Below, piece after piece: positions 9,307 to 29,843 of a stretch of 64,000 nucleotides of DNA. The notes under the pieces were generated by a model. It ran no database searches. It was not told where the DNA came from and saw nothing but the letters and a program-made list of their open reading frames with translations. The stretch comes from a virus, in the IMG/VR virus record IMGVR_UViG_3300042564_002819, positions 1 through 64,000 of that record; one strand, written 5' to 3'. The stretch's first letter is position 1, and every line of letters begins with the position of its first letter. Position numbers and translations under genes: made by a program.

Positions 9307-9903
9307 ATGAAAAATTTTATAAGTATAATTTGGGAAGAAGGCAACGTAAATAAAGACAAGCTAGTCGAATCTGTAATTAATACTAACAATCTTCCACTAA
9401 ATGAGAGTAATGTAAAATACATATCCGGCAAAACCGAACAGGGTGCTAACTTATTACGTATAGCTATTACTAAAAATTTATCAGAAAGCGAATGCGATAT
9501 ACTTGCAGATAAAATTGCAGATAAAGTATTTGAAATGGGCCTAGATGACTTCGATCTCGAATTTACTACTGAAGATGAAGTAGTGGATGAAGAAACCTAC
9601 GATGGCGATGAATTCTACGAAGCATACGGAGTTATGTGGTTCAACGAAGACGAAATATTAGACGAAGCAGAATATCAAGGACGCAAAGTACCGCTAGGAA
9701 AACCTATGCGTGGTGACGTTAAAAAATTTAAAGTGTATGTAAGAAACCCAAGTGGCAACGTAGTTAAAGTAAACTTCGGCGATCCTAACATGAAAATTAA
9801 AAAGTCTAACCCAGCAAGACGCAGAAGTTTCCGTGCAAGACACAATTGTGATAATCCTGGACCTAGAACTAAGGCAAGATATTGGAGTTGCAGGGCTTGG
9901 TGA
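9307..9903 (+). CDS. Conserved phage protein with C-terminal basic Cys-containing domain, 198 aa
   Basis: Two parts are visible: an acidic N-terminal region (about 1-125, many Asp/Glu) and a strongly basic C-terminal domain (about 126-198) with GKPMRGD, NPSGNVVKVNFGDPNM, two RR/RARH stretches and a YWSCRAW ending. The C-terminal domain resembles a conserved domain of unknown function in T4-like marine phages (DUF5872-like, from memory). A function in head contents or DNA contact is possible given the charge, but unproven. An AAGGAAG site precedes the ATG. Confidence 0.65.
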   Translation: MKNFISIIWEEGNVNKDKLVESVINTNNLPLNESNVKYISGKTEQGANLLRIAITKNLSESECDILADKIADKVFEMGLDDFDLEFTTEDEVVDEETYDGDEFYEAYGVMWFNEDEILDEAEYQGRKVPLGKPMRGDVKKFKVYVRNPSGNVVKVNFGDPNMKIKKSNPARRRSFRARHNCDNPGPRTKARYWSCRAW

Positions 9904-10013
9904 TGCATTACAATACTTTACATTGGAAAAAAAGCATGGGTAAGCACATTAGTAGAGGAAAACATAAAAACTTCCTAGTCGAACAACTAAGTACATATAA
10001 GGATTTGACATAA
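9903..10013 (+). CDS. Small hypothetical protein, 36 aa
   Basis: An open frame fills the gap between two genes exactly: its ATG overlaps the upstream TGA (TGATG) and its TAA overlaps the downstream ATG (TAATG). The product is basic (MHYNTLHWKKSMGKHISRGK at the N-terminus) and has no known motif. Coupling at both ends, as elsewhere here, is the main support. Confidence 0.5.
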   Translation: MHYNTLHWKKSMGKHISRGKHKNFLVEQLSTYKDLT

Positions 10014-10369
10014 TGGTAAAAATAGTCGAATTTACCGATCTTGCATTAAATGCACACACCAATGAACCTAATGGAGCACTTCCTTGGGATGTAGTAGAAG
10101 ATTTGGTTGTGTATATGCGTAACGAGCCAAACTTTTACAGACAAAAGTTATACCCTACAATGTTAGAAGTTCAAAAAACTGTTAAAAAAGGCGGCAAGTT
10201 TAATAAAAGAAAAATGATACCTCTTGTAGACGAAGCTGTTTTGTCGTATATTAAAAAGTATAACATCAAAAAAACACCAGAAGAATTGCTATCAGATTCT
10301 GAAAAAATGGATTGCATTTCTAAAATTTTAGAAGACGAAGTAGAAAACTTTAAAAAAGGATCTTATTAA
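10013..10369 (+). CDS. Conserved hypothetical protein, 118 aa
   Basis: A helical protein, acidic at the N-terminus and Lys-rich in the middle (KKGGKFNKRK, about 60-70). The visible segment ALPWDVVEDLVVYMRNEPNFYR suggests a compact helical fold. No domain is recognised. It is coupled at both ends by one-base overlaps with the neighbouring genes and lies among the small putative head-associated genes. Confidence 0.62.
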   Translation: MVKIVEFTDLALNAHTNEPNGALPWDVVEDLVVYMRNEPNFYRQKLYPTMLEVQKTVKKGGKFNKRKMIPLVDEAVLSYIKKYNIKKTPEELLSDSEKMDCISKILEDEVENFKKGSY

Positions 10370-11886
10370 TGCAACTAAGAGAACTGTTTAATCAAAATAA
10401 GACAACAGCAGTTCTTGCATTTGGAAGAATGAATCCAATTACTATTGGACATCGCAAATTAGCTGAAACAATAAAAAGTATACCCGGCGACGGTTATATT
10501 TTTCTTTCTCATAAACAAAATTCTAAAACCGATCCTTTAAGTTTTGAAACAAAACTTAAGTTTGCAAAAGAATACTTTCCAGGGATAACTGTTGGTGATT
10601 CGTCGGTAAGAACTATTATCGAAGCTATTAAAAAAGTAAATTCACTAGGTTACACAAAACTGGTTTATGTAGCAGGTTCGGACAGAGTTAACGAATTTAC
10701 ACAACTACTAAATGCATATAACAATAAAGAATACTTCTTCGAGAGTATTGAAATAGTTAATGCAGGAGCACGAGATCCTGACGCCGAAGGTGTCGAAGGC
10801 ATTAGTGCAAGCAAACTTAGAGAAGCTGCTATAAAAAATGATGTTAAAACATTTCTAGCAGGAACTCCTAACAACAAGTTTTCTTTAGAAATGTTTGAAG
10901 CTGTTCGTAAAAATATGACCGATGTTACGTCCGAGCCCAAGCATAGCAATGTAAAAAAAAATGATTTAATACCAGCATTGGAAAAATTTCTTCCAATTGC
11001 TATGGAAGTATTAAACATTGAAAAACTTCCAAAAATTAAACTAGAAAAACATATAGAAACAAAAGATCAGCCATCATTTGGCAGATTTGTAAATGACAAA
11101 GTTGTTATCCACCTAGGAATTCAAAATCGTCATCCTATAGATATTCTAAGAACATTGGCTCATGAACTTGTACATTTTAAACAATTACTAGATGGAAAAC
11201 TAGACAAAAATAGTGGCATGACAGGAAGCCCTGAAGAAAACGAAGCACACATTAAAGCAGGCATCGTTATGCGTCTGTTTGACAAAAAATATCCAGAATA
11301 TTTTAAAGAACCAGCAGTTAATTTTTCAGAATCAAAAGTAATGTATGTCGAACCGCAGTTCGACGTAGAATGGGATGAGGCAAAAAGATATCCCGAATTT
11401 GCTAAGTTAGGATTCGAAGGATGGCTCAACCTTGTTAAAAAAGGCAAAGCTGTAACTATTAAATCGGCAAAGGGTATAAACAACACCGATGCTAATGAGC
11501 CTGATAGTTTTAAATCTTTAGATCAAAACAAACAAAAACGAGCAATGTCGCAAATACAAAGCGGCAAAGTAGAAATGCCAATAATAGCAGTTTACCCAGA
11601 TGGTTGGAAAGAGCTTATTGGCGGAAATACTCGTTTAACAGGGATGTTAGCAACACAAAGCAAAGCAACTGTTTGGGTCTTTAAAGTTCCTAATGAAATT
11701 CTAGATGAAAACTTTGCAGATGGTAAAGTAAAAGGTAAAAGCAGACCAGGACGTGTAAAACGTGCAGGTGCTAGTTGCAACGGTAGTGTTACAGCACTAC
11801 GTAAAAGAGCAAAAAACAGTTCAGGTGAAAAAGCGAGGATGTATCATTGGTGTGCAAACATGAAGAGTGGACGCAAGAAGAACTAG
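10369..11886 (+). CDS. Multidomain protein: nucleotidyltransferase-like, metallopeptidase-like and ParB/sulfiredoxin-like parts
   Basis: A 505-aa mosaic. Residues about 13-180 form a nucleotidyltransferase-like Rossmann domain: GRMNPITIGH at 19-28 matches the (T/H)xGH signature and GISASKLREAA the ISSTxIR-type motif. About 190-315 holds an HELVH motif at 265-269, as in zinc peptidases. About 340-450 has an ELIGGNTRLTG segment typical of ParB/Srx-like domains. The basic Cys-containing tail (about 455-505) recalls the C-terminus of the 198-aa neighbour. The N-terminus MQLRELF resembles the targeting-like starts of nearby genes. Substrate unknown; the three folds are read from motifs. Confidence 0.72.
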   Translation: MQLRELFNQNKTTAVLAFGRMNPITIGHRKLAETIKSIPGDGYIFLSHKQNSKTDPLSFETKLKFAKEYFPGITVGDSSVRTIIEAIKKVNSLGYTKLVYVAGSDRVNEFTQLLNAYNNKEYFFESIEIVNAGARDPDAEGVEGISASKLREAAIKNDVKTFLAGTPNNKFSLEMFEAVRKNMTDVTSEPKHSNVKKNDLIPALEKFLPIAMEVLNIEKLPKIKLEKHIETKDQPSFGRFVNDKVVIHLGIQNRHPIDILRTLAHELVHFKQLLDGKLDKNSGMTGSPEENEAHIKAGIVMRLFDKKYPEYFKEPAVNFSESKVMYVEPQFDVEWDEAKRYPEFAKLGFEGWLNLVKKGKAVTIKSAKGINNTDANEPDSFKSLDQNKQKRAMSQIQSGKVEMPIIAVYPDGWKELIGGNTRLTGMLATQSKATVWVFKVPNEILDENFADGKVKGKSRPGRVKRAGASCNGSVTALRKRAKNSSGEKARMYHWCANMKSGRKKN

Positions 11887-12005
11887 AGCATTATGTTCGT
11901 GTTTTAAAAGAACACGAACTACGTAGGGCAAGTACCGACGAGAGGAACAAGTATTGGTATGAATATAGAAGATCTAAAGAGATTAGCAGGAATAACAGAA
12001 TTTAA
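11850..12005 (+). CDS. Possible small protein, 51 aa, GTG start
   Basis: A GTG-initiated frame overlaps the 3' end of the 505-aa gene by 37 bases and the 5' end of the next gene by 47. It spans a gap of 72 bases that otherwise has no gene. The product is highly charged and helical (starts MCKHEEWTQEELEHYV). Composition looks coding, but the long overlaps and GTG start leave doubt. Confidence 0.35.
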   Translation: MCKHEEWTQEELEHYVRVLKEHELRRASTDERNKYWYEYRRSKEISRNNRI

Positions 12006-12186
12006 AGGTTATACACCTTACGAAGGTTCTAACATTTCTGTAACCGGGACTGAAAAGCGTCGTATAGAACGAGAAAAAAACATTAAACCTGGAGACAAAG
12101 AATGGTTTGAATTGTGGTTTAATCTTCCATACATGACAGGTTCGCTAAATACAAAGCCGGGCTTTAGAGGACGAAAGAAAAAATGA
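11959..12186 (+). CDS. Small protein with targeting-like N-terminus, 75 aa
   Basis: It begins MNIEDLKRLAGITEF and has a basic C-terminus (RGRKKK). The N-terminus contains an I-T-E site like the hydrophobic-x-Glu sites of T4 internal proteins. A GAGGAAC site lies upstream. The stop overlaps the next start by four bases (ATGA). No enzymatic domain is visible; a packaged head protein is an inference from the neighbours. Confidence 0.55.
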   Translation: MNIEDLKRLAGITEFKGYTPYEGSNISVTGTEKRRIEREKNIKPGDKEWFELWFNLPYMTGSLNTKPGFRGRKKK

Positions 12187-12578
12187 GATTCAAAGATATT
12201 ATTTCCGAAGCATCCAAGCCAAAAGATTATGGAATTCCAGCTGCTATAGATCCTGATGTTGAACGATCAATTCCGGGAACTTTTGTTATACCCGAATTAA
12301 GAAACACAGATCCCTACATGCAATATCGTATGGGATTAGCACTTGCAGTTGCACAAGCAACTAAAAGCAGAGAAGTTAAGTTTGATCAAGAAACAGCTTG
12401 GGCTGAAAATTTTATTACTACTGCATATGCCGAAGAAGAACAAGAAACTATTAAACTAGCAGCAAAGTTAATGGGAGTTAGTACAAGGCAAGTTACCAGT
12501 ACTAAAAGTCAAGAGATCGACAGCGTTAACAAAACAAGTCCAGTTGCTAAACCAAAACGCAACAAATACGGAGTTTAA
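12183..12578 (+). CDS. Putative internal head protein with capsid-targeting-like N-terminus, 131 aa
   Basis: Starts MRFKDIISEASK, closely similar in layout to the T4 capsid-targeting peptide, with a possible gp21-type cleavage after I-S-E. The body is helical with a DPYMQYRMGLALAVAQATK segment that recurs in altered form in the next gene (DYGQYRLMMALA). It ends with the 16-residue tail NKTSPVAKPKRNKYGV, identical to the end of its neighbour, so the two are tandem paralogues or share a functional tag. Confidence 0.65.
   Translation: MRFKDIISEASKPKDYGIPAAIDPDVERSIPGTFVIPELRNTDPYMQYRMGLALAVAQATKSREVKFDQETAWAENFITTAYAEEEQETIKLAAKLMGVSTRQVTSTKSQEIDSVNKTSPVAKPKRNKYGV
12528..12565 (+). repeat. Direct repeat copy 1 (38 bp, gene tail)
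   Basis: A 38-bp stretch identical to 12916-12953. It encodes most of the shared C-terminal tag of the two adjacent small genes, and divergence begins only in the last codons. Confidence 0.9.
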
Positions 12579-12579
12579 C

Positions 12580-12966
12580 ATGAAAGTAAGAGAAATTGTA
12601 AGCGAAGCTGCTGGAAGCAAATTATCAAAAAGAGAACAAGAAGCAACTGTAGGATTGCATACATACGACGATGGCCCAAATCTTGGAGCATTCGGCAGTG
12701 ACTACGGACAATACAGATTAATGATGGCTCTTGCTTGTTCCGACGGAAAGACTCCGCCTGATATAGATGCATTAAGCTGGATCGGGAAGAAGAAAACTGC
12801 ACACCCTTATACCGATGTTGAAGCAGAAATGCTTAAGCAAGGTTATAAAGTAATCGGTCTAAAATACGACGACTTAAATAAAGGTGATACAAAAAGCAAA
12901 GAGCTTGATAGCACAAACAAAACAAGTCCAGTTGCTAAACCAAAACGCAACAAGTATGGTGTATAA
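12580..12966 (+). CDS. Putative internal head protein, paralogue of the preceding gene, 128 aa
   Basis: Starts MKVREIVSEAAG, again a targeting-like peptide with a V-S-E site, followed by a body similar in plan to the preceding 131-aa protein and the identical tail NKTSPVAKPKRNKYGV. The ATG at 12580 follows the previous stop by one base; upstream in-frame sequence belongs to the duplicated tail of the neighbour and is not a credible start. The C-terminal tag is basic and could bind DNA or the scaffold, which is inference. Confidence 0.65.
   Translation: MKVREIVSEAAGSKLSKREQEATVGLHTYDDGPNLGAFGSDYGQYRLMMALACSDGKTPPDIDALSWIGKKKTAHPYTDVEAEMLKQGYKVIGLKYDDLNKGDTKSKELDSTNKTSPVAKPKRNKYGV
12916..12953 (+). 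repeat. Direct repeat copy 2 (38 bp, gene tail)
   Basis: Second copy of the 38-bp repeat at 12528-12565, in the same reading frame of the second gene. It marks recent duplication or recombination between adjacent genes. Confidence 0.9.
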
Positions 12967-13418
12967 TGAAAATTGAAGACCTATTCGAAGAAAAAGGAAC
13001 AAAAGCTGAAGCAGGTTATCAGCCCGATCCTAAGAATGGTCAAAAATGTATTAATTGTACAATGTGGAGAGATCCAAACAAGTGTACAGCAGTTGCAGGT
13101 AATATTAGTCCAAACGGTTGGTGCAAATGGTATGCCGGCGGTGCTTACGGTAAGCGTGGCAAAAAAATCGACGAAGACGGACGTATTGTGAAAGGTGTTA
13201 ACACTACTATTGACGTAGGTCCGGACGAAATTAAAAAGCAAAGTGCAAAGTTTGGAAACTCAGTAACAAAAGATGGATTACCTCCATTTTTAAGAACAAA
13301 CGGTAAGGTAAACGAAGAAGCCAAGTATACTTTGCGTGAATGGGCAGCAATTCAAGGTGGACATACTTTAGAAGATGAACCAATAAAACCTAAGTTATTT
13401 GATTGGAATAAATATTAA
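12966..13418 (+). CDS. HiPIP-like four-cysteine protein with targeting-like N-terminus, 150 aa
   Basis: Starts MKIEDLFEEKG like its neighbours. Residues about 27-55 contain C-x2-C-x8-C-x12-C ending in NGWCKWY, which matches the high-potential iron-sulfur protein signature (two Cys, a third Cys, then GWC-x2-Y) but with a shorter second gap. It may bind a [4Fe-4S] cluster or zinc. The C-terminal half is ordinary and ends LFDWNKY. Similar four-Cys phage proteins are known to me; their role is not established. The start overlaps the upstream stop by one base. Confidence 0.65.
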   Translation: MKIEDLFEEKGTKAEAGYQPDPKNGQKCINCTMWRDPNKCTAVAGNISPNGWCKWYAGGAYGKRGKKIDEDGRIVKGVNTTIDVGPDEIKKQSAKFGNSVTKDGLPPFLRTNGKVNEEAKYTLREWAAIQGGHTLEDEPIKPKLFDWNKY

Positions 13419-13419
13419 T

Positions 13420-13611
13420 ATGCTAATTCGCGAGTTACAAGATACAAAAGTTTTTTCAATATTTGTTGCAACTGTACAAGTTAAACAAAACTTTTATAGT
13501 CAATGGATCCCTGTGCAGGTGTCGGCCCGTAACATGCAAGAAGCAAAACAGCAGATTCTAGCCCAATATGGAAAAGATTCAAAAATTAGCGGATTAAAAA
13601 AAGCAAAATGA
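13420..13611 (+). CDS. Small protein with targeting-like N-terminus, 63 aa
   Basis: Starts MLIRELQDTK one base after the upstream stop. The middle is beta-rich (VFSIFVATVQVKQ) followed by a helix and a basic end. It resembles a small dsRBD- or ferredoxin-like fold in pattern only. Its TGA overlaps the next ATG (ATGA). Confidence 0.55.
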   Translation: MLIRELQDTKVFSIFVATVQVKQNFYSQWIPVQVSARNMQEAKQQILAQYGKDSKISGLKKAK

Positions 13612-13781
13612 AAATTGTAGAGATAACTGAAAAAGCTTTATTAAAAACTCCATTGGGTAGAGAAAAAATAAAAGCAGACCAAGCTAGAGGAAATGATCCT
13701 TGGCCTAAAAAAAGTAAGCCTACACTTGGCCCTACACAAAAACATCCACTGCGTGGAAAATTAGTTGGAGGCGGCTTATAA
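13608..13781 (+). CDS. Small basic protein with targeting-like N-terminus, 57 aa
   Basis: A short open frame coupled at both ends (ATGA with the previous gene, TAATG with the next). The product starts MKIVEITEKALL, with an I-T-E site, and continues as a basic, Pro- and Gly-rich, probably unstructured tail ending KLVGGGL. The composition suits a packaged, DNA-contacting head peptide, which is inferred. Confidence 0.55.
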   Translation: MKIVEITEKALLKTPLGREKIKADQARGNDPWPKKSKPTLGPTQKHPLRGKLVGGGL

Positions 13782-13957
13782 TGAAAATACTTGAAATAAT
13801 TGAGTCTGCATCAGCAGGAGCCACTGGTGCAAGTGGAATAGCAACTGTTGTTAATCCATCTAAAAAATCTAAAAAGTCTAAAACATGGAAACCTACTGAT
13901 AATGCATTAGACATGAAAAATACAAGTTTGTTTGGCACAACTCTAATAAAACGATAA
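13781..13957 (+). CDS. Small protein with targeting-like N-terminus, 58 aa
   Basis: Starts MKILEIIESASAGATG, with an I-I-E site, then a Ser/Lys-rich basic stretch (PSKKSKKSKTWKP) and a short C-terminus. It is coupled to the preceding gene by a one-base overlap, and its stop lies inside the late-type box at 13953-13960. The pattern of hydrophobic targeting start plus basic disordered body is the same as in the preceding genes. Confidence 0.55.
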   Translation: MKILEIIESASAGATGASGIATVVNPSKKSKKSKTWKPTDNALDMKNTSLFGTTLIKR

Positions 13958-13960
13958 ATA
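13953..13960 (+). promoter_or_regulatory. T4-like late promoter box GATAAATA
   Basis: GATAAATA lies 23 bases before the ATG at 13984, in the only real gap in this gene run, with TAATAAATAT following directly and a CGGAG ribosome-binding site after it. Confidence 0.55.
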
Positions 13961-13983
13961 TAATAAATATTCCGGAGATTACA

Positions 13984-14499
13984 ATGAGAAATAAAAAGAT
14001 TAGCGAAGGACTATCAGAGTTAGCAGACACAACAGATCGTGATCATGAAATTCAGATGGCTCGTGCAGAATTATATAAAATTGCAGATTATGCTATCCAA
14101 CTACATAATCTATTAAGAAATATTTCAGAAGAAGAAGGTCTAGAAGCCTGGCAACAATCAAAAATAACAAAAGCAGCCGATTATGTTGGCTCTGTATTCC
14201 ATGCACTATCATACGATAAGAAAGTTCAACCTTCAGTCGGATCACCTACACCGCCAATGGCATCAAGTCCTGCACAGCTAGGAATGTCAGAATCCGATAT
14301 CAAAAACTATAAGTCGTTGCTTGAAAAAGCAAAGTCAAGAGCACAACAAAAGTTTATGGGCATGGTTTATGCTGCAAAGAAAGGCGAAAAGCCTGCTAGT
14401 CCAGAAGTTGCTAAAGTTGCAAAAGGCATGAGTAAGAGTGATGCAAAAGACTTTGCAAAAACAAAGCACAAAGGTAAACCAGAGCACGTCAAGAAATAA
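13984..14499 (+). CDS. DUF3008-like protein, 171 aa
   Basis: The C-terminal part (about 118-171, AQQKFMGMVYAAKKGEKPAS then GMSKSDAKDFAKTKHKGKPE) matches the DUF3008 family, a short domain of unknown function in bacteria and phages. The N-terminal part is helical with MRNKKISEGLS at the start, another targeting-like motif with I-S-E. A CCGGAG site precedes the ATG and the late-type box drives it. A packaged DNA-associated protein would fit the basic tail, by inference. Confidence 0.72.
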   Translation: MRNKKISEGLSELADTTDRDHEIQMARAELYKIADYAIQLHNLLRNISEEEGLEAWQQSKITKAADYVGSVFHALSYDKKVQPSVGSPTPPMASSPAQLGMSESDIKNYKSLLEKAKSRAQQKFMGMVYAAKKGEKPASPEVAKVAKGMSKSDAKDFAKTKHKGKPEHVKK

Positions 14500-15145: not shown

Positions 15146-15412
15146 ATGAGTGATAGAGTTTACGGACCAGAAGAAAAAGCTAAATTAGAAAGACTAGTAA
15201 AAGAAGGCGTTAGTGTTATGCAAGAAGTTGACGACCTTACTAGTAGTCTTAAAGACACAATTAAAAGTGTTGCAGAAGAATTAAATATAAAACCTACAAT
15301 TATTAACAAAGCAATCAAAGTTGCAATGAAGCGTGATTGGAATAAACATCAAGACGCATTCGAGGATCTAGAAACCCTTGTTTCTACCTTGGGCTACGAC
15401 AAAGATGCTTGA
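15146..15412 (+). CDS. dsbA: DsbA-like dsDNA-binding late transcription protein
   Basis: An 88-aa helical protein resembling T4 DsbA, which binds double-stranded DNA near late promoters. The C-terminal half shows the family pattern of a helix KSVAEELNIKPTIINKAIKVA, then a charged stretch and an acidic helix ending LGYDKDA. The ATG at 15146 has AAAGGAG upstream; an in-frame ATG at 15116 overlaps the promoter and is unlikely. The gene lies just upstream of the DNA polymerase gene. Confidence 0.8.
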   Translation: MSDRVYGPEEKAKLERLVKEGVSVMQEVDDLTSSLKDTIKSVAEELNIKPTIINKAIKVAMKRDWNKHQDAFEDLETLVSTLGYDKDA

Positions 15413-21241: not shown

Positions 21242-21649
21242 ATGGATCAGTTTGATATTACTGAATTTGCTAAAATGTTTGACGCAGCACTTGCGTCAGA
21301 CAACCCAGCAGTTAAAAAAGCACTGCGTAACTTTATGATGGTAGCTGCCATTGTTCATGCTCAAGAATTAAATGAAGATGAACGACTAATGGGTCCATTC
21401 GAGGCATTGCTTAAAAAAGTACAATCTCTTGAGAGCATGGTGCGAGAATTACAAAACAATCGTACATACAAAGACCAATATAAAGATTATTATAATTCCA
21501 ATCCAACTTGGGTATATCAACCTACCACAAGCATAAGCACTACTAGCGGTACTTCCAGTGACGCTAAAACTTGGAAAGGTACGTACAACGGCCAACCAAT
21601 CGACCCTTCTGAGATCTATGAGTTATTGAAAGATTTAAAATTTAAATGA
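21242..21649 (+). CDS. Conserved hypothetical protein, 135 aa
   Basis: The ATG at 21242 follows AAGGAGTTAGC and lies ten bases after the clamp stop. The N-terminal half is helical and acidic (about 1-70). A Tyr/Ser/Thr-rich linker follows, and a short C-terminal helix PSEIYELLKDLKFK. No family recognised. It overlaps the start of the DpdA-like gene by four bases, so it is likely co-translated with it. Confidence 0.62.
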   Translation: MDQFDITEFAKMFDAALASDNPAVKKALRNFMMVAAIVHAQELNEDERLMGPFEALLKKVQSLESMVRELQNNRTYKDQYKDYYNSNPTWVYQPTTSISTTSGTSSDAKTWKGTYNGQPIDPSEIYELLKDLKFK

Positions 21650-23211
21650 AAACAAATCTAACAGAAACACAAAACGACTACGCTGTATTCTTGCCTAGTA
21701 TCAGCGGCTTTTACGCTACATTCGTAGGCAAACAACGTTATGGAGAATATGTAGATCCGACTCGTGTTCCTGAAGGCATTGGTGAAGTAGAAGCATTAAA
21801 CTTTTTAAACCCAAGCAAAGGAGCCTTCCATTATAAGTGGGCTCTTTATAGTGCTGGACATGCGGAACTTGATACTGCTAAATTTAGTGAAAAAGAAGAT
21901 ATGCTACGCAACCGTGATAGAAACAACAGTTGGTTGCTAGGAGACTCGGGCGGGTTCCAGATTGCTAAAGGACTTTGGGAGGGCGACTGGACTGATCCAA
22001 ACTGCCCTAAAGCACAAAAGAAACGTGAATTAGTTGTAAACTGGATGGAAGCATACATGGACTATGGCATGATGCTGGATATTCCAACTTGGACTTTCCA
22101 AGATAAGAAAGCTGCAAAAGCAGCCAATATTCACAGTTATCAAGATGCAGTTGATGCTACTCACATTAACGCAAGATATTACATGGCTAATCGTCGTGGT
22201 AACTTTAAAGTGCTGAACGTATTGCAAGGCAGCAATCATGCAGATGCCGACAACTGGTATAACGAATTTAAAGATTATTGTGATCCTAAAAAATATCCAG
22301 AAACACATTTTAATGGGTGGGCTATGGGTGGCCAGAACATGTGTGATGTACATTTAATTTTACGTCGACTTGTACACATGATACACGATGGGTTGCTTGA
22401 GACTGGCGTTCACGATGTTATGCACTTCTTAGGCACTAGCAAATTAGAATGGGCAGTACTGCTTACTGACATTCAACGTGCTGTTAGAAAATATCACAAT
22501 CCTAACTTTATGATTACATACGACTGTGCAAGTCCATTCCTTGCTACTGCAAACGGACAGGTGTATCACAGCATTAGAATCGAAGATCGAGGCAAGTGGA
22601 GTTATATGATGAGTCCAAGTGCAGACGACAAGAAATATGCTACTGATACAAGACCTTTTAAAGATGCCGTTGAACAAGATGGTATATTAGAAGCATTTGA
22701 GGATTCGCCTATAAGCAAGCATCTACAAATCAAAGATGTTTGTATCTATAAACCAGGAGACCTAAATAAAGTAGGCAACGAAGGCAGAACCAGCTGGGAT
22801 AGCTTTAGCTATGCACTGCAAATGGGACACAATGTTTGGATGCATATCGAAAGTACGCAACGTGCAAATGAAAAATACGATGAAGGATTATTTCCTTACA
22901 TGTTAATAAATGAAAAGTTTGAAAGAACTACATTTAAAGATCTTGTAGATGAAATTTTTAGTCTAAAAGATAGAGCCAAGAGTCTTAAATTAATTGACGA
23001 CAATAGTAGATTTTGGATGCAGGTGATAGGAACTAGACTTAACGTTGGTAAAAAAGCTGTCAATGCTCTTACAAATTATCAAAAATTAACTGAAGAGTCA
23101 CACACAGAAATTACTAGCGAAATGCTCAGCGAAGAAGAATTAGCTCGTTGGGAGAAGAAAAAAATCAAAACAAAGTCGTATATGCCAAATGATCTATGGG
23201 AGAATAGTTAA
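21646..23211 (+). CDS. dpdA: TGT-superfamily transglycosylase, DpdA-like
   Basis: A 521-aa protein with the tRNA-guanine transglycosylase fold signatures: DSGGFQ at 100-105 (proton-acceptor Asp100), NVLQGSN near 191-197, NGWAMGGQ near 223-230 and TYDCASP at 291-297, where Asp293 is in the place of the catalytic nucleophile. No CxCxxC zinc motif is apparent, unlike canonical TGT. Phage members of this family (DpdA) exchange guanine in DNA for 7-deazaguanines. FolE and QueE genes 7-10 kb downstream support that role, though a tRNA target cannot be excluded. Confidence 0.82.
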   Translation: MKTNLTETQNDYAVFLPSISGFYATFVGKQRYGEYVDPTRVPEGIGEVEALNFLNPSKGAFHYKWALYSAGHAELDTAKFSEKEDMLRNRDRNNSWLLGDSGGFQIAKGLWEGDWTDPNCPKAQKKRELVVNWMEAYMDYGMMLDIPTWTFQDKKAAKAANIHSYQDAVDATHINARYYMANRRGNFKVLNVLQGSNHADADNWYNEFKDYCDPKKYPETHFNGWAMGGQNMCDVHLILRRLVHMIHDGLLETGVHDVMHFLGTSKLEWAVLLTDIQRAVRKYHNPNFMITYDCASPFLATANGQVYHSIRIEDRGKWSYMMSPSADDKKYATDTRPFKDAVEQDGILEAFEDSPISKHLQIKDVCIYKPGDLNKVGNEGRTSWDSFSYALQMGHNVWMHIESTQRANEKYDEGLFPYMLINEKFERTTFKDLVDEIFSLKDRAKSLKLIDDNSRFWMQVIGTRLNVGKKAVNALTNYQKLTEESHTEITSEMLSEEELARWEKKKIKTKSYMPNDLWENS

Positions 23212-23436
23212 ATGAGTAATTATGAAGATGAAAACGACAAGTTAAAAGCCCATCTAGAAGAACTAAAAAGAAAACACAAAGATTTAGATACTTACATTAA
23301 ATCAGAATTTAATAATCAAAATTTAATTCCAGAAGTATATAAATTAAAAACACAAAAGCTATGGCTCAAAGATGAGATACACAGAATTGAAAACAAGTTA
23401 TTAAATTCCGGTAATATTGTAAATGGTACTGTCTGA
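23212..23436 (+). CDS. DUF465/YdcH-like small helical protein, 74 aa
   Basis: A charged helical hairpin with LKRKHKDLDTYIKSEF (about 18-33) and LKTQKLWLKDEIHRIENKL (about 45-63), the two-helix pattern of the DUF465/YdcH family of unknown function. The ATG abuts the stop of the dpdA-like gene and the end overlaps the next small gene by 14 bases. Confidence 0.68.
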   Translation: MSNYEDENDKLKAHLEELKRKHKDLDTYIKSEFNNQNLIPEVYKLKTQKLWLKDEIHRIENKLLNSGNIVNGTV

Positions 23437-23596
23437 AAAAAGTTTAAAATTAGAAGCATTAGAAATTGCTTTAAAAGATTTAGATCGTATAATAGAAGCA
23501 TTAAAATCTCAAGAATATCCGCAAGAACAGATAAACGAATACGTTAAGAAACGCTGGGCTGTTTGGAATGAAATATATCAGGTAAGAAAATTATGA
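23423..23596 (+). CDS. Small helical protein, 57 aa
   Basis: An open frame covers the 156 bases between two longer genes and overlaps them by 14 and 4 bases (ATGA at the 3' end). The product is one or two amphipathic helices (LEALEIALKDLDRIIEALK) followed by an aromatic segment RWAVWNEIYQV. Coding composition and tight coupling support it; function is unknown. Confidence 0.6.
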   Translation: MVLSEKSLKLEALEIALKDLDRIIEALKSQEYPQEQINEYVKKRWAVWNEIYQVRKL

Positions 23597-24123
23597 AAAG
23601 AATTTATGAACAGGGAATAGAAGAACAAATACAATACTTTTTTGGTACTGAAGTAGAACACACTCCTGCATTTGGTAAAAAGACTTTGTTTGTAGTAGGA
23701 ATAAAAGATCCAGACGAAGTCACAGCAATTGCAAATTCAAATAGCGTTGATCATATCTATCTAGGTGCAAATCAAAGTTTTTCTATAACAGGTGAGCATG
23801 GTACTAACGAAGAAATAGAAGGATGGGAGAAACTAGCTATTAGCCTTTTAAAACAAGGATTTTGGGTTACGTTAGATTTTGATATACGTTATGTTGAATG
23901 GATATTAGAATCTGGCTTTACAGAATACAATCGTTTCATTCCAATGATATCTGCAAAGTTGCCTTATATTTCGCAACTTGGTTACAATGCATGTCTAAAA
24001 TTAGACGATAAAGATTTTGATGCAACAAATCCCGGTGTATGGACACACAGAGTACACGATTTGTTAGATAAAGATGTATTTACGGATTGGTCTAAGTATA
24101 CAACTGATACTATTATTAGTTGA
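23593..24123 (+). CDS. Conserved hypothetical protein, 176 aa
   Basis: An alpha/beta protein with a strand-turn start (KKTLFVVGIKDPDEV), a VDHIYLGANQSF segment, WVTLDFDIRYVEWILE (about 97-112) and an acidic C-terminus. From memory similar proteins occur in T4-like marine phages without assigned function. It ends at the -35 element of the promoter at 24120. Confidence 0.62.
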   Translation: MKRIYEQGIEEQIQYFFGTEVEHTPAFGKKTLFVVGIKDPDEVTAIANSNSVDHIYLGANQSFSITGEHGTNEEIEGWEKLAISLLKQGFWVTLDFDIRYVEWILESGFTEYNRFIPMISAKLPYISQLGYNACLKLDDKDFDATNPGVWTHRVHDLLDKDVFTDWSKYTTDTIIS

Positions 24124-24148
24124 CAAATGTATACGAGCGTAGTAGTAT
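24120..24148 (+). promoter_or_regulatory. Sigma70-like promoter overlapping a start region
   Basis: TTGACA at 24120-24125 and TAGTAT at 24143-24148 with a 17-base spacer. The -10 box overlaps the first possible ATG (24147) of the next gene, which would favour the internal ATG at 24204 for transcripts from here. Confidence 0.45.
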
Positions 24149-24599
24149 GAATTATCAAGAGCATTATTACACTTACATAGCTAGAAAACTAAGAGAAGAG
24201 AGAATGAATCAACCATTAAAAAGTATTTGGGTTACCTTCCGAAAAGAAGGCATACACTTGTATCCTGCCGCAGCAACAGATCCCAAACTTGCAACCGGTG
24301 ACTGGGACGATGTGTCGTTCCTAGGTGTTCCGCATAGGCACATTTTTCACTTTAAAGTTCGTATCGAAGTATTTCACGATGATCGAGATATTGAATTTAT
24401 TCAATTCAAGCGTTGGCTTGAAAAACTGTACAACGAAGACATTCTAGAACTTAATCACAAAAGTTGCGAAATGATCAGCGATGACTTGTATCAAGAAATT
24501 TCTGCAAGGTATCCGGGCCGCCTTGTCGAAATCGAAGTCTCCGAAGACGGAGAAAATGGCTCAATAATTTTTTATCCCACTAACAGTAACGCCACTTAA
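24147..24599 (+). CDS. Conserved phage protein, 150 aa (131 aa from the internal start)
   Basis: No functional family is known to me. It has WVTFRKEGIHLYPAAATDP near the N-terminus, HRHIFHFKVRIEVFHDDR in the middle and an acidic C-terminal helix with CEMISDDLY; the His-rich core suggests a compact metal-binding or ligand-binding fold. The start is uncertain: ATG 24147 lies in a -10 box, while ATG 24204 is preceded by the purine-rich AAGAGAAGAGAGA. Conserved in T4-like marine phages from memory. Confidence 0.6.
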   Translation: MNYQEHYYTYIARKLREERMNQPLKSIWVTFRKEGIHLYPAAATDPKLATGDWDDVSFLGVPHRHIFHFKVRIEVFHDDRDIEFIQFKRWLEKLYNEDILELNHKSCEMISDDLYQEISARYPGRLVEIEVSEDGENGSIIFYPTNSNAT

Positions 24600-24611
24600 A
24601 GGAGAAATTAC

Positions 24612-24806
24612 ATGGCAATTACTAACCCTACCGTTAACAAAGTGTTTTCGGACCTTGAAGAGTTTCGTAACTTTTGTCGATTTGAAGGGCATGTGTTTAA
24701 CGAAGCAGATTTGTATAAGTCTGACGCTAGAGCGTGGCAGGCATTTACAAAGCACAGGAATTGGCTTCGTGCAAAGTCAAGAGTAAAGGTAAAGCGTAAT
24801 GCGTAA
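24612..24806 (+). CDS. Small basic conserved protein, 64 aa
   Basis: An AAAGGAG site precedes the ATG. The product is helical with an acidic first part (SDLEEFRNFCRFEGHVFNE) and a basic end (NWLRAKSRVKVKRNA). No known family. Its stop overlaps the glycosyltransferase-like gene by eight bases. Confidence 0.6.
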   Translation: MAITNPTVNKVFSDLEEFRNFCRFEGHVFNEADLYKSDARAWQAFTKHRNWLRAKSRVKVKRNA

Positions 24807-25962
24807 ACTATTCTATATGGGTTTAGAACCATATGAGGGTAGATACACACTTCAGTTAGAAGATTGGAGCCGTAAGGTCTTTGAACGCCGTGGCATTGAG
24901 TATATCTCGGTGCCCGGTGTTACCATTGATAACACCAAGTCTATCCAAGTTGGTCAAGTGCTTGACGCACATGGACGCTCATTCTTTAGTATGAGCCAAA
25001 TGATGAATCTTGTACAAATGATGCGTAACGGCGAAGTAACTGGCGAAGATGTAGTATTCTTTGAAGATATGTTTCAACCCGGTATCGAATCTCTTCCTTA
25101 CATTATGGATCAGATTCCAGTAGAACAGCGTCCAAAGGTTTGGGTACGTTGTCTAGCACAAACTGTTGACCCTGACGACTTTGTACACGTTTGGGGTATG
25201 AGCAAATGGATGAGTTTGTATGAAGCAATGACTAATGAATTTGTTACTGGCGTTCTTGCTAGTAATGAAGAAATGGTTGCTAATATGAAAATTGCTAACT
25301 GGCGAGCTCCTATTTACAACGTTAGCGGGCTTGCTTTTGGCAAAGAAGAAGTACAAGGTCGTGTGAAAGATATCAAACCTTGGATTGAACGTGCTAATCG
25401 TGTGGTATTTGCTGCACGGTGGGATCAAGAAAAACAACCAGACTTTTACATGGATATTGTAGAACAATGTGCAAATCACTATGTAGAATTTGCAGTCTTA
25501 CAAGGTGGCCCTCTACGTTCAAACAATCCTAAATACATTGAACGTGCAAGAGCTTTAGAAGCGGCAGGTAAACTTAAGATCTACGAAAATCTTAAGAAAA
25601 ACGACTACTACAATATTCTAAACGATAGTCGGGTGATGTTTAACTGTGCTTTGCAAGACTGGACTAGTAATACTGTTAGTGAAGCAGATGCACTTGGTTG
25701 CAATGTTCTGTTTCCTGCTTATCGCAGTTTTCCAGAAATCTTTGCAAACGATCATACAAGAATGTATGTTCCGTGGAGTAAAGAAGATGCTATGAACAAA
25801 TTGTATGCATTGCTAAAAGCACCGCATATGGATATTGGAAAGATTAGCGATTGGACCGATGCTACTATTGATCGTTACATTGACATTATGCAAGGTAACG
25901 GTGAACAATGGCGTCGTGACACTAATCGCTACAGAGACTTTGTATCGGAGAAGAAGTATTGA
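24799..25962 (+). CDS. Glycosyltransferase-like protein (GT-B type)
   Basis: A 387-aa protein with two Rossmann-like halves. The C-terminal half has VVFAARWDQEKQPDFYMDIVE (from about 200), LQGGPLRSNNPKYIERARAL and, near 297-315, SEADALGCNVLFPAYRSFPE, matching the Glu-x7-Glu region that binds the nucleotide sugar in GT4-type enzymes. The donor and acceptor are unknown; modified phage DNA or host/virion surface are candidates. Its stop overlaps the TTG start of the epimerase gene, implying a shared pathway. Confidence 0.7.
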   Translation: MRKLFYMGLEPYEGRYTLQLEDWSRKVFERRGIEYISVPGVTIDNTKSIQVGQVLDAHGRSFFSMSQMMNLVQMMRNGEVTGEDVVFFEDMFQPGIESLPYIMDQIPVEQRPKVWVRCLAQTVDPDDFVHVWGMSKWMSLYEAMTNEFVTGVLASNEEMVANMKIANWRAPIYNVSGLAFGKEEVQGRVKDIKPWIERANRVVFAARWDQEKQPDFYMDIVEQCANHYVEFAVLQGGPLRSNNPKYIERARALEAAGKLKIYENLKKNDYYNILNDSRVMFNCALQDWTSNTVSEADALGCNVLFPAYRSFPEIFANDHTRMYVPWSKEDAMNKLYALLKAPHMDIGKISDWTDATIDRYIDIMQGNGEQWRRDTNRYRDFVSEKKY

Positions 25963-26825
25963 AAGTTTTGGTCACAGGAGCAACTGGTTATATTGGAAGC
26001 CACGTTTGCAAAATCTTAAAAGAACACGGGCACTATGTAGAGGCTTGGGATATTAACTTTTGGGGGGAATATAACGACATTTCTGCATACTGTGATCAAT
26101 TTTATCATTACGATGTAACTAAAAACGTAAAAGGTGAATTTGACGCAGTTGTGCATCTTGCTGGAAGAAGTTTAGTCGAACCTAGTATGCGAACTCCTAC
26201 AGAATATTATTTTACTAATATTCTCGGTACTTCTAACATGCTCGACTGTGTAAAAACTGGCCACTTTATTTTTGCTAGTACTAGCAGTGCTTGGGAAATG
26301 GCATCGCCTTATGCTCGCAGTAAAGTTGCGGCAGAAGATATTATTAAAGAAAAAGCTGCCGGTTATACTATTTTTAGATTTTTTAACGTAAGTGGAACAA
26401 ATGGCATCCATAGACAGCTATGTGCTCCGTCTCATCTCATACATGTAGCTGCCTTAGTTGCAGCAGGTAAACGTCCATATATTAACGTTTACGGAACAGA
26501 CTATTCTACTCGTGATGGTACTTGTATCCGCGATTACGTACATGTAGTCGATCTTGCAACCGCTATTGTAAAGGCAGTGGAAACTGGTCCTAAAAACACT
26601 CCTTATGAGTGCCTAGGCAGTAATCACGGGTGGACTGTGTTAGAAGTATTAGATACCATGGAACGTGTAACTGGTATTAATATTAATAGAATTTACGCAG
26701 ATCGTCGCCCAGGCGATGCAGTTTCTTCAGTTGTTGATAAACTAAGCGACTTTATTACTTTAGAAAAAACAATCGAAGATATGTGCTTAGACCAGTATAA
26801 CTTTGAAAGATCACGAAATGGATAA
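25959..26825 (+). CDS. NAD-dependent sugar epimerase (GalE-like extended SDR)
   Basis: A 288-aa extended short-chain dehydrogenase. TGATGYIGSH at 6-15 is the NAD-binding GxxGxxG, VVHLAGRS follows near 65, and STSSAWEMASPYARSK carries the catalytic Ser and the YxxxK pair. RDGTCIRDYVHVVDLA is the characteristic GalE-type segment. It probably epimerises a UDP-sugar. The start is TTG with GGAG upstream, overlapping the glycosyltransferase stop. Shorter than E. coli GalE (338 aa), it still holds the catalytic set. Confidence 0.88.
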   Translation: MKVLVTGATGYIGSHVCKILKEHGHYVEAWDINFWGEYNDISAYCDQFYHYDVTKNVKGEFDAVVHLAGRSLVEPSMRTPTEYYFTNILGTSNMLDCVKTGHFIFASTSSAWEMASPYARSKVAAEDIIKEKAAGYTIFRFFNVSGTNGIHRQLCAPSHLIHVAALVAAGKRPYINVYGTDYSTRDGTCIRDYVHVVDLATAIVKAVETGPKNTPYECLGSNHGWTVLEVLDTMERVTGININRIYADRRPGDAVSSVVDKLSDFITLEKTIEDMCLDQYNFERSRNG

Positions 26826-27147
26826 TGACGAATTTTTAAAACAGTATGAATTTATATTTTCTAACGAGGACGTTATTAATATTGATTTAAATGATATAAC
26901 ATCAAACACAATTACAGTTTCGACAATTGGCGGAACTGACAATGCAGGCCTGGTTATGACCGGCGACGGTTGGCAATGGACAACGCAGTACAACGTAGTG
27001 TTTCAAGATATAATGCCAAGCCTGAGTACTTTAAATAGCATGTGTAAAGAATATCCTGCATTAGAGAAAGCTTATGAAAATTTTAAAACAGTTTACAAAA
27101 TGGTTGAACAAGACTGGAACGGAAAACAAAAAGACAGCAACGCTTAA
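26818..27147 (+). CDS. Hypothetical protein with shared C-terminal helix, 109 aa
   Basis: The ATG at 26818 overlaps the epimerase stop. The first half is beta-rich (SNTITVSTIGGTDNAGLVM) and the C-terminal helix contains CKEYPALEKAYENFKTVYKM. A similar Y/FP-x-(L/F)-x-K-x(3)-YE helix ends the next two proteins, so the three may interact or share an origin. The reading frame runs 74 bases into the next gene. Confidence 0.6.
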   Translation: MDNDEFLKQYEFIFSNEDVINIDLNDITSNTITVSTIGGTDNAGLVMTGDGWQWTTQYNVVFQDIMPSLSTLNSMCKEYPALEKAYENFKTVYKMVEQDWNGKQKDSNA

Positions 27148-27601
27148 AGAAGCATATTCTGGATACAATCCAGAATATGCTTATATGAATCGCAAAAAAA
27201 CAGAGGCAGAAAAGAAGCGTTTAGAAAAATGGACAAAAGAGCTAAAAAGTATGAGTACATACAATAGCAATAATACAAATGTTTATAGTGGAGGTGGCTT
27301 TGGCGGAACAGGTTACGTGTCTGGTTACACTTTGACAAACAGCACTATTACTACTAACACTACAAATTTTTCTGATAGTGCTATTATTATCAATGGCGGA
27401 CCCAACGGTAGTATGAAGGTTGATGTTCCGTTGATTGTAAATGGCAGAGACGTTATGAAAGAACTTGACGAAATGCGTGACGCTCTGTTATTATTAAAAA
27501 GACACGTAAACATGGAAGAAAAGTATCCGCGGCTAAAAGAATTAAAAGATGAGTACGAGCAAGCTCTCGAAAAATACCAAACATTTGAGGCATTAAAATG
27601 A
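27074..27601 (+). CDS. Hypothetical protein with Gly/Thr/Asn-rich centre, 175 aa
   Basis: A basic helical N-terminus, a low-complexity centre (about 62-105, Gly/Tyr/Thr/Asn-rich) and a C-terminal helical region with EEKYPRLKELKDEYEQALEK. This suits a small structural or tail-associated protein. The start at 27074 has GAGAAAG upstream but overlaps the previous gene by 74 bases; ATG 27185 is an alternative after that gene's stop. Confidence 0.58.
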   Translation: MKILKQFTKWLNKTGTENKKTATLKEAYSGYNPEYAYMNRKKTEAEKKRLEKWTKELKSMSTYNSNNTNVYSGGGFGGTGYVSGYTLTNSTITTNTTNFSDSAIIINGGPNGSMKVDVPLIVNGRDVMKELDEMRDALLLLKRHVNMEEKYPRLKELKDEYEQALEKYQTFEALK

Positions 27602-27894
27602 TACCGGTACATGTAAACTATCAAATACCATATACTAGCAACGGGGATGAACGTGCTCACAATGGCGAAGTGCGAGCAATTAATGGACAGTTACAAGTTT
27701 ACAATGGCTCGTATTTTGTGCCTATACACACTACTGCCTGGGTTGATAATATTGAACTCGGTACTGTTGTAGAATGGTGTAAGCAGAAAATGCAACAGGA
27801 ACTGCGTGAACAAGCGTTGGCAGAACGTTTCCCTGCATTTGCTAAAGCAAAAGAAAACTATGAAATAGTAAAGGCATTAGTTCAACATGAATAA
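27598..27894 (+). CDS. Hypothetical protein with shared C-terminal helix, 98 aa
   Basis: Beta-rich N-terminal half (HVNYQIPYTSNGDERAHNGE) and a C-terminal helix with AERFPAFAKAKENYEIVKAL, the same motif as in the two genes before it. The ATG overlaps the previous stop (ATGA) and the end overlaps the phosphoribosyltransferase gene by eight bases. Function unknown. Confidence 0.6.
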   Translation: MIPVHVNYQIPYTSNGDERAHNGEVRAINGQLQVYNGSYFVPIHTTAWVDNIELGTVVEWCKQKMQQELREQALAERFPAFAKAKENYEIVKALVQHE

Positions 27895-28453
27895 AACTTA
27901 TTACAGTTGGCAAGATGTTGAAACTGCCGCAAGTTGCATTATGCTCAGTATGCAAAAAGATCCCTGGTACCCAGATTGGATTGTAGGATTAAGTCGAGGC
28001 GGATTGCCTCTAGCCACTATTCTAAGTAACCGCCTTGGTGTTCCTATGCAACCTTTAGTTGTTTCTTTACGTGACGGTGAAGCTGGCTGGCAAACTGAAA
28101 CTAATTGCTGGCTTCCAGAACTTGCTTTCGGTTATGTCGAAGTAGAAGAACGTGAAATTTATCGCACCCGTTGGGATATTAGCAAACGAAAAAATATCTT
28201 AATCGTTGATGACATTAACGATACTGGTGCTACGTTCAATTGGATTAAAAAAGATTGGGAATCGAGTGTATTCCCAAATGAACGTGCTGCATGGGATACA
28301 GTATGGGACAAAAACGTTCGATTTGCTGTGATGACACAGAATTGGGGTAGTAGTTTTGAACCAGATTATTGGTGGCACGAAGTAAACAAAGCAGAAAAAG
28401 ATTGTTGGTTAGTATACCCTTGGGAGAAGGAATCATGGCTAAAAAGAACATAA
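27887..28453 (+). CDS. Phosphoribosyltransferase (xanthine/hypoxanthine-guanine type)
   Basis: A 188-aa type I PRTase. The start segment DWIVGLSRGGLPLATILSNR (about 31-50) is the flexible PPi-binding loop region and NILIVDDINDTGATF (about 102-116) is the PRPP-binding loop with its acidic pair. The hood is Trp-rich, as in Gpt-like proteins. It would salvage or form purine nucleotides; a link to the deazaguanine pathway is speculative. Its 3' end overlaps the HIT gene by 19 bases. Confidence 0.82.
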   Translation: MNKTYYSWQDVETAASCIMLSMQKDPWYPDWIVGLSRGGLPLATILSNRLGVPMQPLVVSLRDGEAGWQTETNCWLPELAFGYVEVEEREIYRTRWDISKRKNILIVDDINDTGATFNWIKKDWESSVFPNERAAWDTVWDKNVRFAVMTQNWGSSFEPDYWWHEVNKAEKDCWLVYPWEKESWLKRT

Positions 28454-28830
28454 CCGGACCGTGGACTGATGTAGTTATAGATACAAAAACTTACACTGTA
28501 TTTAAAGATGGTTTTCCTGTCACAGAAGGACATTTGTTGTTTGTTCCTAAAGAAGAAACAATGGAATGTTTAATGGCTTGCTACAAAGCAGCATATGCAT
28601 GGGGCTACGGCTGGATTAATGAAGGTTATTGCGACGGCTACAACATAGGTCAAAATGTAGGCAAAAGTGCAGGACAAACAGTTGATTGGCCTCACATTCA
28701 TTTAATCCCAAGAAGAACCGGCGACATGACAGACCCACGAGGCGGAGTTAGACATGTAATTCCGGAAAGAGGCAATTATAAAAAACACGAATTTGATTGG
28801 GACAATCTGTCTCATGGTCAGGCAGCATAA
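28435..28830 (+). CDS. HIT-family nucleotide hydrolase/transferase
   Basis: A 131-aa histidine-triad protein. NVGKSAGQTVDWPHIHLIPR (about 77-96) matches the family's NxGxxAGQxVxHxHxHxxPR, with Trp replacing the first His of the triad while the central catalytic His and the last His remain. HIT enzymes act on ApnA, AMP-lysine and similar phosphoesters. The ATG at 28435 follows GGAGAAGGAATC. Next to a phosphoribosyltransferase, it suggests nucleotide handling. Confidence 0.78.
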   Translation: MAKKNITGPWTDVVIDTKTYTVFKDGFPVTEGHLLFVPKEETMECLMACYKAAYAWGYGWINEGYCDGYNIGQNVGKSAGQTVDWPHIHLIPRRTGDMTDPRGGVRHVIPERGNYKKHEFDWDNLSHGQAA

Positions 28831-28842
28831 GGAGATTATACA

Positions 28843-29055
28843 ATGCAGGAATTAAGAAATACAATGCTTTCAGCTGTTAAGAAACATGCAGAAGCACACA
28901 TCGAAAAGCACCGTGTTAATATCGAAATTTATCTTCGAAATTCTGTCGGAGTTGGCGAGCATAGCGATATTATGGATGCAATTGAAAAAGAATTAGCACA
29001 CATGGCAGAATATGAAGATCATCTTGAAATTCTCGAAAAGTATTTCAAGGAATAA
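28843..29055 (+). CDS. Small conserved helical phage protein, 70 aa
   Basis: A helical, His- and Glu-rich protein starting MQELRNTMLSAVKKHAEAHI and ending EYEDHLEILEKYFKE. AAGGAG precedes the ATG. I recall similar short proteins in T4-like marine phages, always unnamed. Function unknown. Confidence 0.65.
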   Translation: MQELRNTMLSAVKKHAEAHIEKHRVNIEIYLRNSVGVGEHSDIMDAIEKELAHMAEYEDHLEILEKYFKE

Positions 29056-29060
29056 AGTTA

Positions 29061-29843
29061 GTGACAAGTATAAAATTATTTGATGTTTTATCCGAAGATG
29101 CTGTTTATAATCTAATTGGACATTGTAAAGAGTGTTGGGATTACACCTATCCTAATAGCCAAGCATTAGAAGAAGCATCATACCGTGCCCTTGCCCCTTT
29201 TTTTAAAAATTGTCAGCATTTAGGAGCAGCTAATACAATTGTTGATGTTCTAATAGATTCAAATGCTCTTGATATTAAAGGATGCAAAAAATTAACACAT
29301 ATAGGAAAAACTAATGAGTCATCGAATCACATTAAAAATAGATTTGTAGAGAAAATTTTACCAGATGGATCAAAGATTATTTTTAAGATCCCTAACCAAA
29401 TCGAAACTATGGTTAAACGACCTAAAAGAGATGTAAACAATTGGTCCGGTGATCCAAAAGGACTTGTAGAGTTGTGTTTAAAAGATTACAACGATTTTGC
29501 ATGGTCGACTGCAAAATCTGCAGGATGTAAAAATCTATACAGTCTTGTAGTATTATACGGGGAAAGCAACGGATACAGATCTATTTATGTTACGTTAAAA
29601 GAATTCTCAGTTCCACAAATCGAAACAGCTATACAAAATTCTAAAAAAAAGTATACTGGCTATGATAAAAACGGAAATGAAGTTTGTTTAATAAAAGTAA
29701 TAAGCACCGGCAGTATTAATATTCACAAATTTTTTGATACATCTGAAGGAGTATTACATACCTATCCTGTAAAAAATGGTGTACCTAAATTTTTTAATAA
29801 ATCAGATCTGTTAATAGATGGACCAATAACAAATATTAAATAA
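29061..29843 (+). CDS. Unidentified protein, possibly nuclease-like, 260 aa
   Basis: A GTG-start gene five bases after the previous stop. VDVLIDSNALDIKG (about 62-75) has the spacing of an Asp followed by D-x-K, as in PD-(D/E)xK nucleases, and the rest has alternating helices and strands (LYSLVVLYGESNGY). No diagnostic full motif is visible, so this is a suggestion only. It is the last gene before the folE promoter. Codon use looks like its neighbours. Confidence 0.5.
   Translation: MTSIKLFDVLSEDAVYNLIGHCKECWDYTYPNSQALEEASYRALAPFFKNCQHLGAANTIVDVLIDSNALDIKGCKKLTHIGKTNESSNHIKNRFVEKILPDGSKIIFKIPNQIETMVKRPKRDVNNWSGDPKGLVELCLKDYNDFAWSTAKSAGCKNLYSLVVLYGESNGYRSIYVTLKEFSVPQIETAIQNSKKKYTGYDKNGNEVCLIKVISTGSINIHKFFDTSEGVLHTYPVKNGVPKFFNKSDLLIDGPITNIK

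Follow-up and report, generated by a model that had tools for sequence, protein, structure and literature searches.

A cluster of eleven short genes, all on the + strand, lies at positions 9307-14499 between ClpA and DNA polymerase genes in a giant T4-like virus of bacteria (IMG/VR record IMGVR_UViG_3300042564_002819); the window analyzed here is bases 1-64000 of this 330,024-base record. These genes quite probably encode head cargo that is targeted to the capsid, is made in part as polyproteins and is trimmed by a gp21-type protease, packaging, cleavage and injection being steps that we infer for this phage. Because short N-terminal leaders are clustered here and the same cut signal, hydrophobic-x-Glu, recurs at joints within the proteins, a mixed set of proteins is probably packaged together with the viral DNA and trimmed within the shell. 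The capsid-targeting interpretation in the initial annotation of this DNA is largely supported. What is new is the hydrophobic-x-Glu signal at internal joints and a small protein with a match to the N-terminus that the major capsid protein has after maturation; a literature search of incomplete coverage found no paper describing polyprotein-like joints or such a capsid-protein echo.

The initial annotation had pointed out that consecutive genes share a short N-terminal motif, and all nine N-termini that it listed are real open reading frame starts on the + strand. A Shine-Dalgarno-like sequence precedes most cluster starts (only a 3-base match at 12966, 13420 and 13608), and MKVREIVSEA comes from the start at 12580, not from a longer TTG start at 12544. 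The gene at 9307, which begins MKNFISIIWE, fits the pattern as well. The approximate consensus is M-K/R-I-x-E/D-I/L-x-E, over 8-10 residues. Seven cluster proteins have a leader of the T4 capsid-targeting type, that is, one of 6-20 residues ending in hydrophobic-x-Glu, with the Glu at positions 7-11. Two of the listed N-termini need correction: where the cut would fall, the proteins at 10369 (MQLRELFN) and 13420 (MLIRELQD) carry no Glu. The starts at 10013 and 11959 fit only loosely.

The strict leader pattern was written with the cluster already seen, and p-values obtained with it are therefore optimistic: it matches 6 of 12 cluster genes versus 2 of 157 other genes of the same virus (Fisher p = 8e-7; the control genes were read as stretches totalling ~184 kb of the 330 kb), none of the 65 non-cluster genes within the window, and 43 of 6086 internal Met positions (0.7%; binomial p = 1e-10). 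A loose control pattern, hydrophobic-x-Glu at residues 7-11, occurs in 7/12 cluster genes and 17/157 others (p = 2e-4). Could the likeness be incidental, reflecting codon bias in start regions or plain paralogy of small hypothetical proteins? MK-rich, AT-rich starts are common, and the tandem genes at 12183 and 12580 are paralogs. This explanation was nevertheless already disfavored and we consider it very improbable, given the low frequency of matches among control N-termini of the same virus. Moreover, the bodies of the cluster proteins are, that tandem pair excepted, mostly unrelated (HiPIP, DUF3008, nucleotidyltransferase, unmatched), for which reason paralogy was rejected as the cause. 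Finally, among 1318 dereplicated genes from 130 related loci, 226 have the leader pattern, and the position of hydrophobic-x-Glu shows sharp peaks at Glu 5 and Glu 8-9 that remain after family weighting.

The relatives also show what leaders are attached to. In nine phages the HiPIP body is well conserved (C28, C31, C40 and C53 are invariant in the alignment); its leader, the first 8-11 residues, changes type, being MKIEDLFE, MKSFKEYLTE (T4-type), MRFIEFISE or MKSFQEFLFE, the last in the isolate S-SRM01. The leader form MKxFINIVWE of the 9307 gene recurs in loci L041, L044, L047 and L052, and the leader of the 10369 protein carries a Glu in L056, L075, L100, L130 and L136. Other leader-bearing proteins of relatives have deoxynucleotidase (NT5C), peptidoglycan-binding, nucleotidyltransferase, Cu/Zn and Fe/Mn superoxide dismutase, pterin dehydratase, annexin-repeat and LPD23 domains; one AAA/ClpB match among them may be an artifact of an internal start. 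Two individual proteins are recorded here: the 871 aa leader-bearing protein at L101 9090-11705 has peptidoglycan-binding and annexin-repeat matches, unusual for a phage, and the leader-bearing protein at L029 418-1335 has a Cu/Zn superoxide dismutase domain (2.2e-47) flanked by GVNTT and NFADGK modules. Leader-like starts were also seen in a 271 aa protein (L002 11046-11861, G000 131046-131861; MKISSIIAE^Q, where ^ marks a known or predicted cut site, with the T4-type late promoter sequence TATAAATA 28 nt upstream) and in a 182 aa protein (L004 16178-16726, G000 176178-176726; T4-type MKKLNEYITE^S), which has a relative in L107.

The initial annotation had said that a gp21-like protease should be sought elsewhere in the genome. 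One is present (Pfam S77, the T4 gp21 type, E = 1.3e-26, G000:139639-140079), inside a module of portal (gp20), acidic core protein, protease (gp21), scaffold (gp22) and major capsid protein (gp23). The likeness to T4 targeting peptides also proved sound, since there is a resemblance between the leaders and propeptides verified in T4 (IPII/IPIII, MKTYQEFIAE^A; gp24, MAKINELLRE^S). Alignment of gp23 to T4 gp23 places the established T4 cut site, FLTE^A, opposite KYLSE^SATAGATSAGNIAT, a maturation site kept in Vibrio phage 2.275.O (gp23 71.5% identical), Sinorhizobium phage Phosso and PA5oct. The first gene past the portal begins MILRELYYFDK here (L002:17476) and MKLVELFE^A in a Vibrio jumbo phage, so that a true head-core position can have an MxLxEL start, whether or not the Glu is there; the start of the 13420 protein resembles the former.

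Evidence that such proteins enter heads comes from cyanophages. The S-CREM2 virion proteome consists of 52 proteins (PMC10665884). With the strict pattern fixed beforehand and only non-structural proteins considered, 4 of 5 leader carriers were detected in S-CREM2 virions versus 24 of 189 others (p = 0.0016). Leaders on its virion proteins include those of a cytidylyltransferase (MKNFSSFLTE), an S-adenosylmethionine (SAM) hydrolase (MKDFDSFLEE) and a kinase (VKRFDAFLTE, which fits a looser pattern only). In S-SCSM1 the NMNAT (leader MKSFLQFLKE) is a virion protein, and the two phages pooled give 5/9 leader carriers in virions versus 43/439 (p = 0.001). The putative cytidylyltransferase T4-GC190 is present in purified S-SM1 virions (PMC3037559); its P-SSM2 ortholog starts MKSFSQFLTE. 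The DUF3008 module of the 13984 protein corresponds to nearly the whole of an S-SCSM1 virion protein labeled by mass spectrometry (MS). In the portions of these reports that deal with the virion enzymes, the authors leave their contaminant status open and do not mention a targeting signal (PMC10665884, PMC9602691, PMC3037559). Two virion proteins are of separate interest. In S-CREM2 gp12 (L145 7704-10313), a Cas9-like nuclease, a leader-like stretch, LRFASFMAE^AA, lies internally but close to the N-terminus; judging from the sequence, translation may begin later than annotated, even though the Leu is encoded by CTG. S-SCSM1 gp93 (L150 31626-31835), a DUF3008 protein, ends in a leader-like RTFKEFLEYIE; T4 Alt likewise has a C-terminal propeptide.

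It is improbable, in light of these data, that the leaders bind some other partner (the scaffold only, a membrane or an assembly partner) and that the proteins act unpackaged in the infected cell. The absence of Glu from some leaders and the failure to detect S-SCSM1 gp30 (MKTFKQFMSE) in virions would fit that idea; the repeated presence in cyanophage virions of leader-bearing nucleotidyltransferases homologous to the cluster enzyme, and of the DUF3008 protein, speaks against it.

That cargo is also cut internally is suggested by the joints between modules, whose boundaries were taken from the alignment of leader-bearing proteins. Near boundaries, Glu has a hydrophobic residue at -2 in 32.7% of cases versus 24.7% elsewhere (p = 3e-5), an effect absent for Asp, Lys, Gln, Ser, Asn and Gly and, in the case of Glu, at the other offsets tested. 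The test was made conditional on Glu because a preference for small residues after the cut, tried as a boundary signal and rejected, was enriched together with similar motifs. For named modules, hydrophobic-x-Glu occurs in 84/101 internal joints and 47/51 Glu-bearing leader joints; here p-values overstate, because the patterns were hand-picked after the boundaries had been viewed, those for DGR and NLG partly build the result in, and the sequences are related. NFADGK has Glu at 50/50 internal joints (37 with hydrophobic-x-Glu) and at 5/5 directly behind a leader. The hydrophobic-x-Glu counts, internal and behind a leader respectively, are 5/5 and 14/14 for DGRIVKGVNTT, 13/15 and 5/5 for TASAG, and 12/14 and 22/26 for GLxDLA-DHE; AEYQGRK has it in 6/6, and NLG[LMI]xE, beyond which the sequence is unrelated, in 11/11. 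In the TASAG module the residues downstream of the gp23 maturation site occur again (YLSE^SATAGATSAGNIAT in gp23 versus MKILEIIE^SASAGATGASGIAT in the 13781 gene, which is simply leader plus TASAG module), and this downstream sequence recurs at 20 joints, gp23 itself counted.

Within the cluster, joints are predicted in the proteins at 9307 (ILDE^AEYQGRKVPLGKP, i.e. ILDE^AEYQ, after aa 120, nt 9666), 10369 (VNFSE^SKV, aa 321; ILDE^NFADGK, aa 447), 12966 (KKIDE^DGRIVKG, after aa 70, nt 13175) and 13984 (LGMSE^S, aa 103; SLLE^K, aa 114). The aa 447 joint lies in a stretch of low pLDDT (predicted local distance difference test) directly before the confident C-terminal module.

Are these joints cut, or are they uncut relics of fused leader-bearing reading frames, so that the packaged cargo loses its leaders and stays multidomain? 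Several modules are found in fused form as well as singly after a leader, so that a fused frame would retain the old leader Glu, and acidic linkers are generally common at boundaries. What is informative in the joint data, however, is the constancy of P3 and P1 among variable neighbors: in fused modules P2 and P4-P6 have drifted, with P3 hydrophobic in 74-100% versus ~0-20% at most neighboring positions. Likewise NLG[LMI]xE is conserved up to the Glu and diverges completely beyond it. We therefore think relics rather unlikely, though clearly less so than the two alternatives considered above.

Beyond the hand-picking of joint patterns, several points weigh against the view that the cluster encodes packaged and cleaved cargo. 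The upstream Glu may merely be a conserved module residue, and boundaries are acidic in general, hydrophobic-x-D-[SAG] and polar-x-E-[SAG] being enriched too. The leaders at 10369 and 13420 lack the cut Glu; in T4, Asp at position 10 is reported to stop processing and not targeting (work cited in PMC9026906), and by analogy these two leaders could still target. As a second virion test, S-SCSM1 showed 1/4 strict carriers detected, which is not significant and gives no general association. In the stretches read of the jumbo relative PA5oct, leaders of this kind are all but absent, for which reason that comparison says little. The corresponding interval of PA5oct contains structural genes detected by MS and a cytidyltransferase that is leaderless and carries no MS label, which makes the cluster interval look like a variable hot spot. 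Finally, no T4-type late promoter (TATAAATA) lies beside the cluster; the head genes mostly have none either, and it was set aside as an uninformative marker of late expression.

If packaging and cleavage do occur, the 8-10 residue leader would bind the forming prohead core, and this binding would draw cargo in before the shell closes. The gp21-type protease would then cut after hydrophobic-x-Glu, removing the leader, and would likely also cut multidomain cargo at joints bearing the same signal. Several small mature proteins could thus stay in the head beside the DNA, likely to be delivered on infection; packaging and ejection are here modeled on T4. Judged from sequence, the payload would include a nucleotidyltransferase (possibly NAD-related), a HiPIP-type iron-sulfur protein and DNA-binding-like basic modules. 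Our guess is that the nucleotidyltransferase restores NAD (nicotinamide adenine dinucleotide) on entry, an idea also raised by others (PMC9602691, PMC10665884); that the HiPIP, with the superoxide dismutases of relatives, hints at redox protection of incoming DNA is speculation.

More broadly, and tentatively, since we hold the case to be nearly balanced but leaning slightly to the negative, the head payload of T4-like jumbo and marine phages may consist of shuffled cassettes, each a core-binding leader plus interchangeable modules split by gp21 sites. One prohead protease would trim leaders and dice packaged polyproteins, and one cassette would copy the N-terminal arm of the mature major capsid protein, giving shell and cargo the same cut context. 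The leader offers a sequence rule for predicting the head contents of T4-like phages, with superoxide dismutases, deoxynucleotidases and HiPIP as candidate payloads in relatives, and a reason for the recurrence of NMNAT-like enzymes, kinase and SAM hydrolase in cyanophage virion proteomes. Cutting at the joints would mean that virion cargo is synthesized in polyprotein form and processed by the head protease.

Table 1. Genes of the cluster and its flank (^, predicted cut)
Coordinates	Strand	Length (aa)	Leader and other features
9307..9903	+	198	Leader MKNFISIIWE^E; basic C-terminal module
10013..10369	+	118	Weak leader-like start MVKIVE^FTDLALN; loose fit only
10369..11886	+	505	Multidomain; leader MQLRELFN, no Glu at cut position
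11959..12186	+	75	Start MNIEDLKRLAGITE^F; loose leader fit
12183..12578	+	131	Leader MRFKDIISE^A; paralog of 12580
12580..12966	+	128	Leader MKVREIVSE^A; paralog of 12183
12966..13418	+	150	Leader MKIEDLFE^E; HiPIP domain aa ~10-60, four Cys; then GVNTT module
13420..13611	+	63	MLIREL leader without cleavable Glu
13608..13781	+	57	Leader MKIVEITE^K
13781..13957	+	58	Leader MKILEIIE^, then SASAGATGASGIATVV; matches residues after gp23 maturation site
13984..14499	+	171	Leader MRNKKISE^GLSELA..DHEIQMAR module; C-terminal DUF3008
15146..15412	+	88	Flanking gene, no leader, directly before DNA polymerase; marks conserved locus

Some of these proteins can be annotated further. The 10369 protein has a PPAT/NMNAT-type nucleotidyltransferase domain (aa ~10-185), an HExxH-bearing region, a region common to other cargo proteins and a basic C-terminal NFADGK module. 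The nucleotidyltransferase assignment is firm (phrog_3041, 1.7e-50; Foldseek to PPAT, E = 3e-5, prob 1.00), with PF01467 at 19.5 bits, slightly below the cut-off of 21, and no phmmer match in the PDB; the HExxH peptidase and ParB-like parts are only suggested. The HiPIP assignment of the 12966 protein rests on PF01355 (6.5e-6, 26.8 bits versus a curated cut-off of 22) and PioC 6xyv (2.1e-11), and that of DUF3008 in the 13984 protein on PF11450 (8.8e-9). Residues 118-198 of the 9307 protein match phrog_7595 (2.2e-10), and the 11959 protein has no family match. The paralogs at 12183 and 12580 share the tail SPVAKPKRNKYGV; a structure model of this family (pLDDT 47) was unusable. The PA5oct homolog of the flanking 15146 gene, EST35_0310, is MS-positive in virions.

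Elsewhere in the window, inspection of translations by eye revealed a dense run of radical-SAM-like genes at 42347-63916, several of them SPASM- or B12-binding-looking, with asparagine-synthase-like, PP-loop and dioxygenase-like neighbors; for a phage this resembles an odd biosynthetic cluster. At 21646-32954 there are TGT-like, GTP cyclohydrolase-like, QueE-like and SAM synthetase-like genes, possibly a deazaguanine DNA modification pathway.

The closest known system is that of T4 IPI-III and Alt, where a capsid-targeting leader cut by gp21 (PMC9026906) is, as here, short, N-terminal, ended by hydrophobic-x-Glu and borne by unrelated proteins; the gp21-type protease and T4-type head core genes are likewise in the same genome. 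T4 has scattered ip genes plus alt, whereas here about eleven candidate genes form one cluster, with leaders closer to that of T4 gp24 (MAKINELLRE) than to that of IPIII. Unlike the T4 system, the cargo here includes enzymes and a HiPIP, and the signal recurs at internal joints; a second cut, at the C-terminal end, is already known from T4 Alt (PMC5694885). In phiKZ and SPN3US, too, a prohead protease trims many head cargo (ejection) proteins after x-Glu, but those propeptides are mostly >100 residues, are cut after A/S-x-E and belong to another phage group (PMC5694885). The cyanophage virion NMNAT and cytidylyltransferase are homologous to the cluster nucleotidyltransferase (PMC10665884, PMC9602691, PMC3037559), and the cluster leaders are of the type found on the S-CREM2 cytidylyltransferase, SAM hydrolase and APH-like kinase. 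Polyvalent proteins (Iyer et al. 2017, PMC5512222) are phage proteins that likewise combine several domains and are predicted to accompany the DNA into the host; the polyprotein analogy has already been drawn for them, and they share LPD23 with the leader protein of one relative (L043). Their release is ascribed to embedded peptidases (PMC5512222), whereas a separate prohead protease, an explicit joint signal and a T4-type leader are proposed here.

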